This document shows, piece by piece, positions 314 through 34,360 of a stretch of 34,361 nucleotides of DNA. A model generated the notes under the pieces. It worked only from the letters and a program-made list of their open reading frames with translations. It was not told where the DNA came from and made no database searches. The number at the start of each line of letters is the position of its first letter. Position 1 is the first letter of the stretch. The stretch comes from Pseudomonadota bacterium (GTDB lineage Bacteria > Pseudomonadota > Gammaproteobacteria > Burkholderiales > Burkholderiaceae_C), in the NCBI GenBank assembly GCA_031119395.1, contig JAVHYA010000053.1:1-34361 (forward strand). The letters run 5' to 3'. A program made the position numbers and the translations under genes.

Positions 314-808
314 TCAACCCACAGACGTACTAGGCGCAGCCACCCAATGGTCCAACGCGAGACGCCCCGGGCCCAGCGCCATGACGCACAGCGCCAAGGC
401 GGCCCAGTAGAGGTGGAAGTTCGCCCAGCCGTCGGGGAAGACCAACTGGATCACGGCCGTCATCAGCAACAGCCCGAGCGCAGCCACCCGCGTGGCCAGG
501 CCGACGATCAGAAGCACGGGAAGAAGAATCTCCGCAGACGCCACCCCATAGGCCAGCACGTCCGCGAAGGGAAAGCCGTAGGTGCTACCGAACAGATGGA
601 GCTTGAATTGCTCCTCGAAGAGAAAGCCGGTGGCGGGCGACAGCGAGAAGAAGCCGTCCCACCGAGTGAGCCCGGAGCGCAGGAAGGGCAGCGCCAACGC
701 GACACGGGCCACGGGGGGCGCCACGCCGTGCCCCAGCCACGCGATCCGGCGGGCCACGCAGGCCATGACGCGTTGCTCCCATCGAAGCGATGCGGCGGGG
801 TGGTTCAT
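314..808 (-). CDS. DoxX-family membrane protein
   Basis: A 164-residue protein with about four hydrophobic segments (for example VARVALALPFL, ILLPVLLIVGLATRVAALGL and YWAALALCVMALG). The layout ALPFLRSGLTRWDGF, a membrane hairpin and a final aromatic helix is the DoxX pattern. The start ATG at 808 overlaps the stop of the upstream DUF2063 gene (ATGA) and is preceded by AGGAG, so the two are translationally coupled. DoxX proteins are inner-membrane proteins of poorly defined, often redox-linked, function and are frequent last genes in DUF2282/DUF692/DUF2063 (bufferin) operons. A role alongside the bufferin is inferred from that context. Confidence 0.85.
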   Translation of the reverse strand: MNHPAASLRWEQRVMACVARRIAWLGHGVAPPVARVALALPFLRSGLTRWDGFFSLSPATGFLFEEQFKLHLFGSTYGFPFADVLAYGVASAEILLPVLLIVGLATRVAALGLLLMTAVIQLVFPDGWANFHLYWAALALCVMALGPGRLALDHWVAAPSTSVG

Positions 809-1617
809 GAGCAGCTCCTGTTCTCGGGAACGACGAAGCCGGTGAACGCCTTCGCGTCGACCAGCCCCGCCAGATTGCGTGCCAGGTCGAAGCGTGCATC
901 GGCCTCCAGCGCGACCGCCATGGCCTCGACCGCGCGCAGGCCTTCCCCCAGCGCCTGGACGAATGCCGCGCCGCCCGGCGGCAGGACCCGAAGTTCGACC
1001 TCCGCAGCGGGCCGCAGGACCAGCACGTCTTCTCCCTCTCCATCGAGCTCGACCCGTGACGGCGCGCCGGCCTCGACGTTCATCTGCCAGATGGTGAGCA
1101 CGGGAGAGGATGAACGAATGCAGCGCAACGACGGGTGGAGCGTGAAGCACAGCCGGGCCAGGACGTCGGCCGGCAGGACGACCAGTTCCTCTACGTCCAG
1201 TGCCCGCGCTTCCTGCGCGTGGTAGGCCTCGACCCAGGCTCGCTCGAGCCGCGCGGTGTCTGCGAGGTAGGGCAACACCTTTGCCGGCTCGAAGCGGTCG
1301 ATGAAGTCCGCGAAGCCGCGGCCGTAGTCCAGCATGACGGGCGATGCCGGCGGATCCGTGGCCACGTAGAGGCGGGCCATGGCGGCGAAGAACGCATCGC
1401 CCACGATCCGATGCACGACCGGGTAGGCATCGGTCAACGTGGCCACGAGGCCGGCGACGACGTTGTTGCGGTAGACATTGAAGCGCGTCGTGCTGGGGAC
1501 GCCGTCGGGCCCGACCAGGCCCTGCGGAACCGGCGCGAGCGGATCGAGCAGGGCGGCAGCGAACCGCGCCTGCCCGTGCACGAAGCTTGCCGCCGATCCG
1601 GGATCGCCGCCGCTCAT
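805..1617 (-). CDS. bufC: DUF2063 protein, bufferin MNIO partner (BufC-like)
   Basis: A 270-residue protein. Its N-terminal half has the DUF2063 signature: a helix with FVHGQARFAAALL, then RFNVYRNN, LTDAYPVVHRIVGD and LDYGRGFADFID. The C-terminal half is an alpha/beta domain ending VPENRSCS. DUF2063 proteins are partners of DUF692 (MNIO) enzymes; they bind the precursor peptide so that the iron enzyme can modify its cysteines. The start ATG at 1617 overlaps the upstream stop (ATGA), and the stop at 805-807 overlaps the doxX start, so three genes are coupled. The cognate MNIO gene is not adjacent but about 4.4 kb upstream at 5999-6901. The family call is firm; the symbol is by analogy. Confidence 0.85.
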   Translation of the reverse strand: MSGGDPGSAASFVHGQARFAAALLDPLAPVPQGLVGPDGVPSTTRFNVYRNNVVAGLVATLTDAYPVVHRIVGDAFFAAMARLYVATDPPASPVMLDYGRGFADFIDRFEPAKVLPYLADTARLERAWVEAYHAQEARALDVEELVVLPADVLARLCFTLHPSLRCIRSSSPVLTIWQMNVEAGAPSRVELDGEGEDVLVLRPAAEVELRVLPPGGAAFVQALGEGLRAVEAMAVALEADARFDLARNLAGLVDAKAFTGFVVPENRSCS

Positions 1618-2594
1618 GGCGTGATGGGGCGCATGGCGAGGTTCGCCCACAGTCGGCGCAGGCTCTCGACACCGCCGGCGGTGGAACTCCACAGCGTGGC
1701 GTCGCACACCACCACGTCGCCGGCAAAGACGCCCGCGCGACTCTGGAGCATGGCGTCGAAGGTCCATCGGCCGCCCTGCGTGAACGGATGCGCGGGCGCG
1801 TGTGGATCGATGTGCTGGCTTGCCAGGACCTCCATCCGGGCCATGGCATCCGTCCGCCGCTCGAAATGCGGCAGGTGGGCATGCAGGTTGAACGTGTCCA
1901 CCCCCACCAGCAGTCCCAGCCGGTCCGCGGCGCGGTCGGCCACGATGGCCGCAGGGCTTCCGTCTGCGGCGGCCGCGGGCCGCAGGCCGTAGCGGTTGTC
2001 CACCGGCAATCCCAGCCCGGCCAGCAAGGCGCGCGCGAAGCCGCCGAACCGCTGCTGCGGCGGAATGCTTCGGTCGCCGTGGTGCAAGAACTCGTCTTCC
2101 TGCAAGGCGTCCCGGTGGTCGGGCGGCAGATCGTCTGCCCGGCCGATGTCGTGGTGGGGGCAAACCACGAGCAGCTTGCCCGGCCTGCCCAGGAAGGCGC
2201 GCAACGCACGAAGTTCTTCCGGGTCCACGGGATGGCTGGAGTGCGGCGAATCGAATCCGATCACCACCAGGGTATCGAGGCCATCGACGAGACCGCTGTC
2301 CAGTGCGGTGAACCGCCCGGAAGCGTCGACGCGCTCCAGTTCGGGCACGCACCGGCCGGTCAGTGCGCGAACGTCCTCCAAGAAGGCAGTGAAATTCCTC
2401 TTCATGACGTGATCGAGGAAGCCTGCGATGCCCTGGTCGAACACAGCCGGATCGGCGAACTGCCGGAACCTGGGGTAGGCGATCCGGCGCGTCTCGAACA
2501 GCGCCGGAAATCGGTCGTCGATCGATTGCAGGGGCGCGCTCACTTCTTCCGGGCGGCTCCAGGCGTAGTACAGGGCGATTCGATGGGGCGTCAT
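1614..2594 (-). CDS. Unrecognised His-rich protein in bufferin cluster
   Basis: I do not recognise this 326-residue protein. It has no signal peptide or membrane segment. Residues about 105-150 (DTLVVIGFDSPH, then LLVVCPHHDIG) look like two strands of a Rossmann or class-I glutamine-amidotransferase-like fold, resembling ThuA/DUF4350 relatives, but a catalytic triad is not evident. Histidines cluster at 118, 121, 147, 148, 171, 172, 238, 240, 243, 261, 265 and 269, and Cys145 sits in VCPHH, so metal binding is plausible. It lies 124 bases after bufA and overlaps the bufC start by ATGA, so it is co-translated with a known maturation factor. The ATG at 2594 is chosen; an in-frame TTG at 2639 would add 15 residues. 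A bufferin-related role is inferred from position only. Confidence 0.8.
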   Translation of the reverse strand: MTPHRIALYYAWSRPEEVSAPLQSIDDRFPALFETRRIAYPRFRQFADPAVFDQGIAGFLDHVMKRNFTAFLEDVRALTGRCVPELERVDASGRFTALDSGLVDGLDTLVVIGFDSPHSSHPVDPEELRALRAFLGRPGKLLVVCPHHDIGRADDLPPDHRDALQEDEFLHHGDRSIPPQQRFGGFARALLAGLGLPVDNRYGLRPAAAADGSPAAIVADRAADRLGLLVGVDTFNLHAHLPHFERRTDAMARMEVLASQHIDPHAPAHPFTQGGRWTFDAMLQSRAGVFAGDVVVCDATLWSSTAGGVESLRRLWANLAMRPITP

Positions 2595-2718
2595 GAAAGT
2601 GCGGCAGCGTCGAGGCGAGGCGGCGCGCTGCGATGTCAAGGGCGACGCGGCAGGCGTGCCGCGCCAAGGCAGGACGGGCGCCTCCCGCCGTGCGGCGCGC
2701 TCCGACCTGCACGCATGC

Positions 2719-3096
2719 TCAGGAGGACTTCGGGCTCAGGCTACCCGGCCCGTTGGGCGTGGAGATCGATGTGCAGCTGCCCTTCGGAACCAGCTTGAAG
2801 GCGTTGCCCTGCCAGTCGGTGGTGCTGGTCCCGGCGCAGGTCGTCCCTGCGCCGGCATAGCAGTCGTTCTGGCCTTTGACCGCAGTGCCGAAGCAGGGCT
2901 CGACCTTGCCAGCCTTCACGATGGCCGTGTGGTCGGCCTGGATCTTCTTCTGCGCCTCGGTGAAGGTCTGCGCGCCAGCCGCCGTCGCGGACAGCGCACC
3001 GATCGCAGCGACGAATGCGCCGACGGCCAGAGGCGAAAGCTTGCGGCTGGACGCCAATTCCTTTTGGGAGGCCGCGGACAGAGTTTGAGTCGACAT
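2719..3096 (-). CDS. bufA: DUF2282 bufferin precursor peptide (BufA1-like)
   Basis: A 125-residue secreted precursor. Residues 1-42 form a long signal peptide with a twin Ala-rich core and a cleavage site after AGA (42/43). The mature part has exactly four cysteines (68, 79, 87, 108) in the DUF2282 arrangement [26 protein letters not shown]. In bufferins these cysteines are converted to sulfur heterocycles by the MNIO/DUF2063 pair, and the exported product binds copper or related metals. A clear AGGAG site lies about 10 bases upstream of the ATG. It is followed by the unknown gene, bufC and doxX. The C-terminal tail after Cys108 (Ser/Pro/Gly-rich, ending KSS) is longer than in the DUF2282 proteins I remember. 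Maturation by the MNIO in this window is inferred. Confidence 0.88.
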
Positions 3097-3295: not shown

Positions 3296-4291
3296 TCAAT
3301 CCGGGTCTTCGGAGAGCTTCGACAAGGGGGCGGTGGATTCCTTTCTATCGAGCGGAACCAGCGCCAGTCCGGCCTTTCGCCAGGCGGCCAGGCCGCCCGT
3401 GAGCGTGACCGCAGTCCGCACACCTCGGGCCCGCAGCCCTTCGGCCAGCGTGGCTGCGGCAACATCGTTCGGAGAGGCGCAATACAGCACCACCTGGCGG
3501 GCCGCGAGCGCTGCATCCTGCAGCATGGCATCGCTGCCCAGGACCGCGCCGACGATCGCGTAAGGATCCGCCTGGCGTCCGTCGACCGAGCGCACATCGA
3601 TCACGGTCGGCGTCGCGTCGCCGGACATCAACGCGCGCAGGTCCTCGACCGATATCCTGTGCGTGCCCAGGCGGCGTATGAGCGCCGTGCGCCGAACATG
3701 GCGGTACGCGACAAAAGCCGCGGCCAACACGATCGCTGCGACGAGCGCACCGGGCCCGGCCGTGGCCAGCGCCGAGGAGGCCGCCTTCAGCACGGGCGCA
3801 AGGTACGGACCGGCGCCCAGGGCCACCGCGGCCCAGACGAAGGTGCCGGCCGCGTCTCTCCACAGGAAGGCGGCCACTCGCACCTTCATCGCCCCGGCGA
3901 GCGGCACGGCCACGAGCGACAGCCCGGGAATGAACCTGGACATGACCAGCACCCACGCACCCCAGCGCCCATAGAGCTTTTCCGTCTGAATGACGCAGCT
4001 GTCGCGCGACATGGTCAGCTTGCACAGGGCATGCAAGGTGCGGTGGCCATAGCGCCGCCCGCAGGTGAACCACACCAGGTCACCCGCCAGTCCGCCGGCG
4101 ATCGCAGCAAGCAGCACGCCGCCGAGCATCGGCCAGACCTGCCAGGACGGCGACGGCCCGGTGATCGACAAGGATGCGCCCACCAGCACCAGCGTCGCAA
4201 ACGCAGGCACCGGTGCGCCCAGCGATGCGACGAAGACGACCGCGAACGCGATCTGGGGCGCGTGGCGCGCGGCGAGCTCGTAGGAAATCAT
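3296..4291 (-). CDS. DedA (VTT) membrane protein fused to rhodanese domain
   Basis: A 331-residue fusion from the chosen ATG (4291); a GTG at 4354 would add 21 residues. The N-terminal part is a DedA/VTT domain: a re-entrant hydrophobic segment with GAPVPAFATLV, then GDLVWFTCGRRYG, and the SRFIPGLSLVAVPLAGAM motif, followed by a final helix (PGALVAAIVLAAAF). After a basic linker comes a rhodanese domain (SVEDLRALMSG, VIDVRS, VVLYCASPNDVAA, TGGLAAWRKAGL) with its candidate sulfur-carrying Cys in LYCAS. DedA proteins act in lipid-carrier flipping; rhodaneses carry persulfide. DedA-rhodanese fusions are known. It lies 200 bases before bufA, so thiol or metal stress is a reasonable but unproven link. 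Confidence 0.85.
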   Translation of the reverse strand: MISYELAARHAPQIAFAVVFVASLGAPVPAFATLVLVGASLSITGPSPSWQVWPMLGGVLLAAIAGGLAGDLVWFTCGRRYGHRTLHALCKLTMSRDSCVIQTEKLYGRWGAWVLVMSRFIPGLSLVAVPLAGAMKVRVAAFLWRDAAGTFVWAAVALGAGPYLAPVLKAASSALATAGPGALVAAIVLAAAFVAYRHVRRTALIRRLGTHRISVEDLRALMSGDATPTVIDVRSVDGRQADPYAIVGAVLGSDAMLQDAALAARQVVLYCASPNDVAAATLAEGLRARGVRTAVTLTGGLAAWRKAGLALVPLDRKESTAPLSKLSEDPD

Positions 4292-4403
4292 GCGCGGGAT
4301 TCGCTGGGCAAGGGTTGGCAGGGGCGCCGTGCGGTCGGCCGGGCTGGCAGGCACGGCGCCGCTGACGTGCGCCGAGCATTCGAGGCCGGGTCGGCAAACG
4401 CCC

Positions 4404-4865
4404 TCAGTGGCGGCGATACGCCCGGTAGTCCGTCAACAGCGCTTCGGCCACCAGCAACGCGCCGCCCGCCACATGGAGCACTGCGACCGTCGCAGAGGTC
4501 TGTACATAGCCCAGCACGAAGGGCGCCGCCATGACGGCCACGCCCAGTGCCAGATCGAGCACTTCATGGACCTCGATAGGAATCAGCCTGCACAGGCTGA
4601 TTCGATAGTCGGTGAAGGCAGACGCGACCAGGCCGAAGAGCATGAAGCCGACGCTCGCATGCTGTGCCCGGGCGTCGTTTGCCAGAACCGCCCCCAAGCC
4701 CAAGGCCGCCGATCCGGCGTAGTCGACCAGCGAGTGGAGGTCCTGGGGCACCAGCCGTCGCAGCGGCAGGTGCCCGGCCAATGGGCGCGAAGGTCTGCCG
4801 ACGCTCGTCAACCATCGAGTTCGGAGACGCACGTCGAGCGGTGCCCTTGTCGTATCACCCGCCAT
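4404..4865 (-). CDS. SPW-repeat-like membrane protein
   Basis: A 153-residue protein with a basic N-terminus of about 40 residues and four hydrophobic helices arranged as two similar pairs: SLVDYAGSAALGLGAVL with FMLFGLVASAFTDY, then EVLDLALGVAVMAAPFVLGY with AGGALLVAEALLTDY. The internal duplication ending in TDY each time fits the SPW-repeat family of small inner-membrane proteins, whose function is unknown. Its start ATG overlaps the end of the GlxA-type regulator by 11 bases, which suggests joint translation. The N-terminal 40 residues are not hydrophobic and the start could lie further in. The family call is moderate. Confidence 0.7.
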   Translation of the reverse strand: MAGDTTRAPLDVRLRTRWLTSVGRPSRPLAGHLPLRRLVPQDLHSLVDYAGSAALGLGAVLANDARAQHASVGFMLFGLVASAFTDYRISLCRLIPIEVHEVLDLALGVAVMAAPFVLGYVQTSATVAVLHVAGGALLVAEALLTDYRAYRRH

Positions 4866-5949
4866 CGCCGCCCACCAGTTCTCCGCGCTCGAAGCTCATG
4901 TTGGTGAATTGCTCCCTGTAGGCCGAGGGCGTCAGACCCGTATGGCGCTTGAATATCCGGCGGAAGAAAGCGACGTCCGCGTACCCGACCTTCGCCGACA
5001 CGGTCCCCACATGGCCTGTGCCCGCCTCGAGGAGCTCCTTGGCCGCGGCGATGCGCAAGGACTGCAGGTATTCACCGGGCGGATGCCCGGTCGCCGCAGC
5101 GAAGCGCCGAATGAAACTGCGAGTGCCCATGCCCGCCCGCTCGGCGAGGAAGTCGGCCGAGATGTCGTGCTGCATGTGTGCGGCCAGGTACTCCTCGATC
5201 TCGCGAACCCTGGCGTCCGAGTGCGGACGCGAGATCGGCAGCACGGCGTAGCCGGACTGCTGGCTGCGGGGCATGCTCAGGAGCAGCGACTTGGCACAGC
5301 GCAAGGCAATCTCCCGGCCGCACAGCTTCTCCACGAGATAAAGGCTCAGGTCGATGGCCGCATAGACACCGCCGCTGCAGAACATCTGGCCGTCTTCGGT
5401 AACGAATTTGTCAGGTCGCCATATGACCTTCGGATAGCGTGCCTGCAGCAGCCCGGCCACCGCCCAGTGCGTGGTCGCCCGGCGCCCATCCAGAAGGCCG
5501 CTCTCCGCGAGAAAGGCGACGCCTGTGCAAACGCCCGCGATGCGCGCGCCGCGCGCATGCCACTCGCGCAGCCAGGGCAGGATCGCCGACTCGCGCGCGA
5601 TGCGATCCTGCACGTCCAGCCCGGACGCCGGCAGGATGATGATGTCCGTTTCGGTGATGTCCGCGATCGAGCACTCCGGCGTGAGCCCGAGCGCACACAG
5701 CGTCCCGACGGGCTTGCCGTCCACCGAGGCGATGCGGACCCGAAAGCGCGGATCCTCGCTGTCGCCGTGGAGCTGGTTCCAGAGCGTACCGGCCGAGTGG
5801 AAGATCTCGATCGGTCCGACCGAGGTGGAGGCAAAACTCGACTCGGTCAGCACCACCGTCACCTTGAATATCTCAGGCTTGGCCCTTCTGGCGAGTGAAG
5901 GGACGGCCTCGCTGGGCCCCGTCGACCGTTCGACTTCAAGGAGGCTCAT
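4855..5949 (-). CDS. GlxA-family transcriptional regulator (DJ-1/PfpI + AraC)
   Basis: A 364-residue two-domain regulator. Residues about 28-220 form a DJ-1/PfpI-type sensor domain (VTVVLTESSFAS..GPIEIF, ADIIILPASGLD-like strand, and the nucleophile-elbow region GVCTGVAFLAESGLLDGRRATTHW). Residues about 255-350 form an AraC helix-turn-helix pair (ISADFLAERAGMGTRSFIRRFAAATG and VAFFRRIFKRHTGLTPSAYREQF). Members bind DNA through the C-terminal domain, while the N-terminal domain senses an unknown, often nitrogenous, ligand. It starts 49 bases after the MNIO stop and overlaps the SPW gene, so it sits inside the minus-strand run and may control it. The ligand is unknown. Confidence 0.9.
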   Translation of the reverse strand: MSLLEVERSTGPSEAVPSLARRAKPEIFKVTVVLTESSFASTSVGPIEIFHSAGTLWNQLHGDSEDPRFRVRIASVDGKPVGTLCALGLTPECSIADITETDIIILPASGLDVQDRIARESAILPWLREWHARGARIAGVCTGVAFLAESGLLDGRRATTHWAVAGLLQARYPKVIWRPDKFVTEDGQMFCSGGVYAAIDLSLYLVEKLCGREIALRCAKSLLLSMPRSQQSGYAVLPISRPHSDARVREIEEYLAAHMQHDISADFLAERAGMGTRSFIRRFAAATGHPPGEYLQSLRIAAAKELLEAGTGHVGTVSAKVGYADVAFFRRIFKRHTGLTPSAYREQFTNMSFERGELVGGDGG

Positions 5950-5998
5950 GTCGCTGCCCCCCGTCTCGGCGTGCCCCGAGGCCGGCGTGAACGCCGCT

Positions 5999-6901
5999 TC
6001 ATCGCCGTGCCGCGCGCTGCGCCCCGCTGGCCGCCATGGCGTACATCGTCGCTTCGGCGCGCTCCGCCTCCTCCTGAAGGACGGCCCAATCGGGCAGCTT
6101 CGAATCCCATTCGATGAGGGAAGGAACAGGGCCCGTTCGTTCGATCACCCGCGCAAACAGCGCCCACACCTCGTCATCGATCAGGCGGTCATGGGTATCG
6201 ATCAGGAGCGGCCTTCCCGCCTCGTCGCACTCCCGGGCGTGGCCGGCCAGATGGATCTCCTTGACACTGCCCAGAGGAAATGCGTCGATGTAGCCCACCA
6301 TGTCCCACACCTGGTTGGTGCATGCCACATACACGTTGTTGACGTCGAGCAGCAGTCCGCACCCGGTGCGGCGCACGAGTTCGGTAAAAAACGCCGGCTC
6401 CGACCAGTCGCTTGCCGAGTAGGCGACGTACGTGGAGGGGTTTTCGATCAGAACCTGGCGGCCGAGGGTGTTCTGCAGCTCGTCGACGTGGTCAGCCACC
6501 CGAACCAGGGTCTCCGCCGTATAGGGAAGGGGCAGCAGATCGTTGAAGAAGTGCGTTCCGTGCGTCGACCAGGCCAGGTGCTCGGAAAAGAGTGCTGGCG
6601 CATACCTTGCGTTCAGCGCCTTCAGACGTTGCAGATGCAGTGCATCCAGCGGCGCCATGCCGCCGATCGACAGGCCCACGCCATGCACCGAGAGGGTATA
6701 GCGCTCCCTCACAGCGGCGAGGTATCGATGCGGCGGTCCTCCGGCGCCCATGTAGTTCTCGGCGTGTACCTCGAAGAACCCCACATCCGGCCGGGTCTCG
6801 ATCACCGTCCGATAGTGCTCGGCCTTCAGGCCGACCCCCGCGCGGGCCGAGAGCCCTCCGCGTGCCAGGGTCCGAGGCAGTTGCTCAGTGGCCTGGCTCA
6901 C
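5999..6901 (-). CDS. bufB: MNIO (DUF692) iron oxygenase, BufB-like
   Basis: A 300-residue DUF692 protein of the usual length. Conserved features run in order: RAGVGLKAEHY (20-30), HGVGLSIGG (His73), SEHLAW (Glu107, His108), IENPSTYV (Glu153), LLLDVNN (Asp186, Asn188), HLAGH (217, 221), DTHD (235, 237) and IEWD (Glu264). These are the iron-binding TIM-barrel residues of multinuclear non-heme iron oxidative enzymes, which modify cysteines in ribosomal peptides; here the candidate substrate is the DUF2282 peptide at 2719-3096. The start is a GTG at 6901 because it leaves a normal N-terminus and forms a GTGA overlap with the upstream mini-ORF. Three unrelated genes separate it from bufA, which is unusual. 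Confidence 0.88.
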   Translation of the reverse strand: MSQATEQLPRTLARGGLSARAGVGLKAEHYRTVIETRPDVGFFEVHAENYMGAGGPPHRYLAAVRERYTLSVHGVGLSIGGMAPLDALHLQRLKALNARYAPALFSEHLAWSTHGTHFFNDLLPLPYTAETLVRVADHVDELQNTLGRQVLIENPSTYVAYSASDWSEPAFFTELVRRTGCGLLLDVNNVYVACTNQVWDMVGYIDAFPLGSVKEIHLAGHARECDEAGRPLLIDTHDRLIDDEVWALFARVIERTGPVPSLIEWDSKLPDWAVLQEEAERAEATMYAMAASGAQRAARR

Positions 6902-6957
6902 TTGTTGCTCCCGTCGTGGCCCTCTCCAGCAACCGGAGCAAACGTTTGGATTTTCAT
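6898..6957 (-). CDS. 19-residue mini-ORF coupled to the MNIO gene
   Basis: A possible peptide of 19 residues (MKIQTFAPVAG...GSNK) with a strong ribosome binding site, AAGAGGT, about 7 bases before its ATG. Its TGA overlaps the MNIO GTG start as GTGA, so its translation would feed ribosomes onto the MNIO gene, which has no good site of its own. It has no cysteine, so it is not itself a bufferin-type substrate. It may be a translational-coupling leader or the remnant of a longer gene. Real translation is inferred from the site and the overlap only. Confidence 0.45.
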   Translation of the reverse strand: MKIQTFAPVAGEGHDGSNK

Positions 6958-7239
6958 TGGATACCTCTTGGATGGTCGACGACATGGAGAGGCTCGCCCA
7001 GAGCCAGCCGTGGAGCGCTCCCTCCCGCCCGGAACGAGCGCGCGTTCTTCGGCACTGCATGGCCTCAGCCGGTTGCCCCGTAGCTCTGACGTTCGCCGGT
7101 TGCAAGCACCCGATCGACGAACCCGGCAGCCCCGTTCGTTCGCGATGCTACGGATGACGACCAAGGCAGAACAGACGTTTCTTCGTCTAGCGCTATAGCA
7201 TCAGGCGATAGCAGACATGCGCACGACCAAGGGCCTCCG
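6958..7239. promoter_or_regulatory. Divergent control region between MNIO cluster and lysR
   Basis: About 280 bases between divergent gene sets, with no convincing gene. Close to lysR there is an inverted repeat AGACG (7173-7177) / CGTCT (7184-7188), followed by a palindrome GCTATAGC (7192-7199) and a further ATAGC. Dyads of this kind with T/A ends suit a LysR-type operator, but none matches T-N11-A convincingly. The region must also carry the minus-strand promoter for the mini-ORF and MNIO gene; no clear -10/-35 pair is visible. Confidence 0.35.
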
Positions 7240-34285: not shown

Positions 34286-34360
34286 GTCTCCGTAGTTCAA
34301 TGGATAGAACGGCCCCCTCCTAAGGGGCAGATACAGGTTCGATTCCTGTCGGGGGCACCA
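34286..34360 (+). tRNA. tRNA-Arg (anticodon CCT)
   Basis: A 75-base cloverleaf. The acceptor stem GTCTCCG pairs with CGGGGGC (with G-U pairs), the D arm is TAGTTCAATGGATAGAAC-like, the anticodon stem GCCCC/GGGGC encloses CTCCTAA with anticodon CCT, and the T arm has GGTTCGATTCC. The CCA end is encoded (34358-34360). It reads AGG codons, which are rare in such GC-rich genomes. tRNA-Arg 3' ends are common integration sites, but the window stops one base after it. Confidence 0.95.

Follow-up and report, generated by a model that had tools for sequence, protein, structure and literature searches.

What does a gene for a 326-residue protein of an unnamed family do inside an operon for bufferins, which Antoine et al. 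2025 (PMC12452194) describe as a large family of copper-binding modified peptides? The question is raised by the window, that is, the whole stretch of 34,361 nucleotides analysed here (contig JAVHYA010000053.1, from a Pseudomonadota bacterium of the lineage Burkholderiaceae_C), in which this gene, termed X below, occupies positions 1614–2594 of the minus strand (ATG at 2594, stop codon at 1616–1614; read from its translation). The same text groups as adjamnio-VI the unknown proteins without a Pfam signature that are encoded between the MNIO and DUF2063 (PME-type 1) genes of classical buf1 operons; it suggests that they are tailoring factors and states the function of the extra buf1 gene to be unknown (PMC12452194).

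The bufferin-1 operon of the window

X is separated by 124 nt from the preceding bufA (2719–3096, minus strand), which codes for the DUF2282 bufferin-1 precursor (PF10048, E = 1.1 × 10−19) with four cysteines in its translation. At its other end, the stop codon of X overlaps the first codon of bufC (805–1617, minus strand), the gene for the DUF2063, PME-type 1 partner (PF09836, E = 1.8 × 10−25), in a 4-nt ATGA junction that reads ...CCATGAGC. Translation, Pfam matches and junction agree with the first-pass annotation, which had placed the gene between the DUF2282 precursor and DUF2063 genes with an ATGA overlap to the latter and had left the strand unstated. Downstream of bufC lies a gene for a DoxX-family membrane protein (314–808, minus strand; PF07681, E = 2 × 10−14 on 314–802, with the start at 808 taken from the frame). 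The DUF692/MNIO maturase gene bufB (5999–6964, minus strand; PF05114, E = 9.6 × 10−103; NCBIfam MNIO_BufB, 378.3 bits against a cutoff of 310; start codon uncertain) is found upstream of bufA. Between the two are three further minus-strand genes (the whole block spanning 3296–6964), coding for a VTT (DedA-like) protein with a rhodanese domain (3296–4354; PF09335, E = 9.4 × 10−10; PF00581, E = 1.2 × 10−4), an SPW-repeat-like protein (4404–4865; PF03779 at 28.9 bits, below the curated cutoff of 31.5) and a DJ-1/PfpI plus AraC regulator (4855–5949; PF12833, PF01965). A tRNA-Arg (CCT) gene lies at the end of the window (34286–34360).

An antisense open reading frame of 403 codons (1587–2798, plus strand) overlaps X; the homologues that we found match the minus-strand frame. 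Reading of the sequence revealed no apparent signal peptide at the N-terminus of X and no obvious membrane segment. The protein has 15 histidines, 13 of them from residue 118 onward, in line with the many histidines earlier noted in its middle and C-terminal parts.

A real but rare family

X by itself matched no Pfam or NCBIfam family (threshold E ≤ 1), nor any sequence of the PDB (threshold E ≤ 10). When 11 homologues were scanned singly, there were no PADLOC or NCBIfam matches and just two Pfam families at chance level (E = 0.22 and 0.27, one member each); a profile of the 11 members likewise matched nothing in the PDB under E = 0.09. Thus, the initial view of X as a protein without a recognised family holds across the Pfam, NCBIfam, PADLOC and PDB sequence searches. 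A defence system was considered and rejected, with none of the 11 members matching a PADLOC family.

X is present in a single copy in its own genome, and its family is real but rare. Across genome samples that overlap one another, the class (369 genomes) and phylum (349 genomes) samples each gave one match, in the own genome, while the order sample (399 genomes) gave a full-length match in the own genome only, beside two partial ones of 66 and 74 residues (E = 2.6 × 10−4 and 5.0 × 10−4). The family sample (299 genomes) contributed a second genome, G821, in addition to the own, with none in the three same-genus genomes shown. Scanning of GTDB contigs yielded 45 stretches with one confirmed relative, that of Synechococcus sp. 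BO 8801 (45% identity), in scans that depend on short peptide patterns and can therefore miss distant relatives; among 244 genomes of its phylum, this Synechococcus genome gave the one match. In plasmids, 19 of 72,556 records match X (in 17, a single place has a coverage of 80% or more), namely those of Rhizobium (9), Streptomyces (5), Nostoc (3) and Caballeronia (2), and a search from the Nostoc member retrieved 17 records, the same set minus two fragments. None of 50,697 phage records matches X and no relative was confirmed among viral contigs, which argues against a viral origin.

Invariant histidines and aspartates suggest a metal site

Across 13 homologue rows, 53 positions are invariant. 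These include 7 of the 15 histidines of X (147, 148, 171, 172, 238, 240 and 269; hypergeometric P = 0.005), the aspartates D107, D115, D149, D174 and D298, and the glutamates E17, E34 and E127. Among the residues singled out in the first-pass annotation, His147/148 and His238/240 proved invariant and His243 is kept in 12 of the 13 rows, whereas Cys145 is kept in just 7 (Gly or Ala in the other 6) and His118 in one. The natural reading of the invariant His/Asp set is a metal site, and the pattern supports the histidine-rich, probably metal-binding site proposed for X at the outset; H147-H148-D149, H171-H172-G-D174, H238-x-H240, H269 and D298 probably build one or two such sites. The invariance also points to continued selection on X.

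Fold comparisons

Two hydrophobic strands (residues 108–118 and 141–151) lay behind the earlier suggestion of an amidotransferase/ThuA-like core. We compared X by HH profile comparison with family profiles built for the analysis, using column shuffles and the reversed X as controls, with E-values given per single comparison. Scores above all same-family shuffles came from GldG (30.6–30.9; E = 0.0018, probability 14.6%; largest shuffle 27.9), DUF4350 (25.1–25.4; E = 0.0086; largest shuffle 23.8) and ThuA (PF06283; 20.9; E = 0.049; largest shuffle 20.1), each reached by 0 of 60 and then 0 of 150 shuffles, the rerun with 150 using rebuilt GldG and DUF4350 sets. The hhalign probabilities for these three do not exceed 14.6%, over 38–55 columns. 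The DyP set gave up to 28.6 with shuffled X, and the reversed sequence scored 21.9 against BufC (19.9–20.1 against GldG), so that only the GldG score exceeds every control. The profiles of the neighbouring proteins gave scores within the range of shuffles: MNIO 15.3 (20 of 60), DyP 14.0 (46 of 60), PLP 14.7 (43 of 60) and BufC 12.6 (48 of 60).

GldG (ABC_transp_aux, PF09822), a part of membrane transport complexes, and DUF4350 (PF14258) align with X over a central β-α-β unit of the form D-x-L-V-V ... E-x-x-A-x-x-x-F-L ... L-x-V; unlike them, X has no Pfam match and no obvious membrane segment, and carries the His/Asp set. None of the 11 members matched a curated family of the DUF4350/GldG/ThuA class in Pfam or NCBIfam. 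Structure prediction with AF2, proposed earlier as a check, gave models of two sequences that are both α/β in order, but with mean pLDDT of 43.1 (pTM 0.46) and 49.2 (pTM 0.56); a Foldseek search of the PDB with these two low-pLDDT models yielded nothing at E ≤ 0.001. The weak rows for the first model included entries of catalase large subunits (E ≥ 0.14, not significant). Taken at this level, the amidotransferase-like class (DUF4350/GldG/ThuA) is the best lead for the fold, weakly suggested by profile likeness above same-family shuffles, and not a result. These profile comparisons lend the ThuA-like core proposed at first weak support.

More specific assignments were weighed as well. The class I glutamine amidotransferase profile (PF00117) is not above controls (18.5, reached by 5 of 60 shuffles; reversed X 19.6), and the candidate nucleophile Cys145, whose positional equivalence we infer, is kept too seldom for such an enzyme. 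Ferrochelatase (HemH), prompted by weak Foldseek rows of the second model and by a motif, was rejected, since 11 of 60 shuffles reach its score of 17.25. In the case of the PIG-L/LmbE deacetylases, the likeness of PHHD to PHPDD is one of motif and not of a domain, with only 8 columns aligned (score 21.5, 1 of 60 shuffles, from a set with one empty row). Kinship to the PME-type 1 (DUF2063) protein BufC fails on the shuffles given above and on the lack of a PF09836 match.

Genomic contexts of X

We then read the contexts of 18 loci. Besides the window, these are the Synechococcus locus (L002), the G821 locus (L024) and 15 plasmid records, all of the 19 except Caballeronia SBC2, two Streptomyces records and one Nostoc plasmid. 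The stretches mostly extend 8 kb to each side of X; for unannotated ones, proteins of annotated loci served as tblastn queries. A bufferin locus is present at nine of the 18 (the window, L005, L007, L008, L015, L119, L120, L108 and L118), two of them decayed, and a bufferin gene is absent from the stretch read at the other nine. Against the refuting condition set in the first-pass annotation, homologues mostly away from DUF2063 genes, this count is mixed.

The Rhizobium bufferin operons are compact, with the gene order ABM–bufA–bufB–X–bufC–DoxX–sigma–DUF1109, whereas the window has bufB split from bufA by three genes. X lies between the MNIO and DUF2063 genes in L007, L119 and L120 by annotation and in L005, L008 and L015 by tblastn (L015 also shows frame breaks in several genes). 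This is the exact place of adjamnio-VI, unlike that in the window, where X has bufA and bufC as its neighbours and bufB lies upstream of bufA. By gene position, X very probably belongs to adjamnio-VI. Before bufA, the Rhizobium operons with X (L005, L007, L008, L015, L108, L119 and L120) have a gene for an ABM-domain protein; a search of the first 12 kb of the window gave no similar gene.

A DyP peroxidase gene occurs in the stretch read at seven of the 18 loci and adjoins X in five. In these, from Streptomyces (L010, L013, L014) and Nostoc (L011, L012), a small protein, DyP and X are encoded side by side in varying order. In Rhizobium L009 and Synechococcus L002, the gene directly before X codes for a pyridoxal-dependent decarboxylase, an M28 peptidase is encoded nearby and the DyP gene is several kb away; the peptidase, decarboxylase and X genes thus form a block that recurs in a cyanobacterium and a Rhizobium plasmid. 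The DyP label in L009 is that of the record annotation, and its partial sequence is unmatched to other DyPs (best E = 0.06). A literature search found no paper on a DyP/decarboxylase/emfourin cluster. Of the remaining loci, that of G821 features a catalase-family gene (by Pfam) and ars genes (named from their sequences), and Caballeronia L006 has no recognised partner.

The GxxD motif and a HIRxxNPR stretch, which we take to be haem-site motifs, are kept in three of the four DyPs inspected, and neither is present in the partial one. The Nostoc DyP neighbour matches the DyP structures 8re2 and 8re3 (E = 1.6 × 10−105 and 1.7 × 10−104), entries described as deriving from studies of the Deinococcus radiodurans DyP. 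Related DyPs are encoded in 45 plasmid records; X is matched in 8 of these records and unmatched in the other 37. Among the latter kind, DyP records of Sinorhizobium, Deinococcus, Rhodococcus and Bradyrhizobium have a related small-protein gene before DyP, followed in two of the four by a catalase-family gene. At L104, L105, L106 and L107, the protein upstream of DyP is about 200–240 aa long, and BLAST, where it gave an alignment, showed 22–35% identity to the Streptomyces and Nostoc proteins; the one scanned had no Pfam match. In one of these four, a NIPSNAP gene follows. Given that the related records read, with DyP and the small protein, have no X match, X is an optional member of this cassette as well. 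Comparison of the ABM protein of the Rhizobium operons with the DyP-cassette small protein gave no support for kinship (score 15.0, with shuffles reaching 20.1).

Probable recruitment into, and loss from, one bufferin-1 lineage

A midpoint-rooted tree of the 13 rows resolves three groups: the Streptomyces/Nostoc DyP group (support 100/100), the Synechococcus/Rhizobium decarboxylase–DyP group (86/86, not starred), and a third (100/99) uniting four bufferin rows with Caballeronia L006 and G821 L024. Two of the three groups are without bufferin loci, and with all bufferin loci in one group the contexts may reflect few events. A BufB-like MNIO occurs in 346 plasmid records. Among the best 60 of these, the seven ranked first for likeness to the MNIO of the window all hold X or a remnant beside the MNIO, and the next, Nitrobacter hamburgensis (65.8%), has an annotated bufferin operon in a record without an X match; within these 60, X thus marks one MNIO lineage.

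The X stop reads ATGA in the window, L005 and L008 and GTGA in L007, with the bufC frame following in all four. The bufC start is annotated at the X stop in L007 and L120, and 51 nt after X in L119 (the T1470 record). By itself the overlap is a weak sign, since L006, without bufC beside X, also reads GTGA.

In Rhizobium leguminosarum BIHB 1217 (L108, 6894–7138), X is cut to residues 1–57 and 295–322 in different frames, while ABM, bufA, bufB, bufC and DoxX were all found by similarity. With the other bufferin genes recognisable and two end remnants left of X, the gene was apparently lost without loss of the operon. Rhizobium sp. ACO-34A (L118, 4852–5096) is a decayed bufferin locus, where a piece of bufA (53 residues, 86.8%) adjoins one of X (32 residues) and bufB, bufC and DoxX are unmatched in the 10-kb stretch.

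What X may do

The first-pass tie of X to bufferins fares well in one respect, the recurrence of the gene beside bufC in bufferin-1 operons, and poorly in another, for as a factor for bufferins as such it is at odds with the nine loci and two tree groups without a bufferin gene and with the otherwise complete L108 operon. The presence of relatives near haem peroxidases and catalases weakens a bufferin-specific reading and points to X as probably a shared helper of oxidative and metal-stress operons. Our preferred reading, tentative at a probability of about 0.4, is that X is a cytosolic metal-binding enzyme with an amidotransferase-like core, accessory to such cassettes and supplying an optional step in bufferin operons.

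The most serious competitor, rather unlikely in our estimate, makes X a tailoring enzyme that further modifies the MNIO-modified bufferin precursor held by BufB/BufC. The position of X would fit this role, which is also the one suggested in print for adjamnio-VI (PMC12452194): in Rhizobium X is flanked by the MNIO gene and the DUF2063 gene, in the window by bufA and bufC. Yet half of the loci, and two of the three tree groups, lack a bufferin gene next to X; no RiPP precursor is named in the annotation of the DyP loci; and L108 keeps the other bufferin genes without an intact X. Alternatively, X might deliver metal or assemble cofactors, providing iron for the MNIO BufB and haem or iron for DyP and catalase. 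The invariant His/Asp set would suit such a factor, as would neighbours that differ in fold and mostly belong to families known as iron or haem enzymes. We nevertheless consider it unlikely: X or its remnant was found beside the MNIO in 7 of the 346 records, and 37 of the 45 related-DyP records do not match X, so that the partner enzymes evidently manage without it, and the ferrochelatase likeness failed its shuffles. We regard it as quite improbable that X is only a passenger, which would make it an unrelated enzyme that shares the stress regulation of the operon but has no functional link to BufB/BufC. Its rare and patchy distribution, its decay in L108 and the partnerless Caballeronia locus speak for this view; against it stand the position of X immediately upstream of bufC, seen both in the window and in Rhizobium, and the selection on its invariant site.

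Under the preferred reading of X as an accessory enzyme, its α/β core would probably be of the DUF4350/GldG/ThuA class of amidotransferase-like folds, with the usual position of the nucleophilic cysteine not kept. The family would serve DyP peroxidase, catalase plus ars, and bufferin cassettes, and would have been recruited into one bufferin-1 lineage directly before bufC, with which it is probably co-translated. There it may act in the cytoplasm, either on a redox-active small product or on the metal or peptide that BufB/BufC handle; its contribution would be an optional step, unlike that of a core maturase. The mid-operon place of X argues for a closer tie to BufB/BufC than the word accessory implies.

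A bolder proposal, to which we give little credence, sees in X the founding member of a metalloenzyme family whose His/Asp site sits on an amidotransferase-like scaffold and which serves two unrelated oxidative systems, non-haem-iron RiPP maturation and haem peroxidase/catalase cassettes. If true, the common task of X could be the handling of a reactive product of both systems, such as peroxide, a radical or released metal. The seven histidines and three aspartates offer named targets for testing. An extra gene in some bufferin-1 operons is already in print; the words "peroxidase" and "catalase" are absent from the main text of Antoine et al. 2025 (PMC12452194). What is added here is the occurrence of the same family close to genes for DyP and catalase, with members in Actinomycetota and Cyanobacteriota as well. 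The question thereby shifts from which modification is added to bufferin to what these oxidative cassettes have in common.
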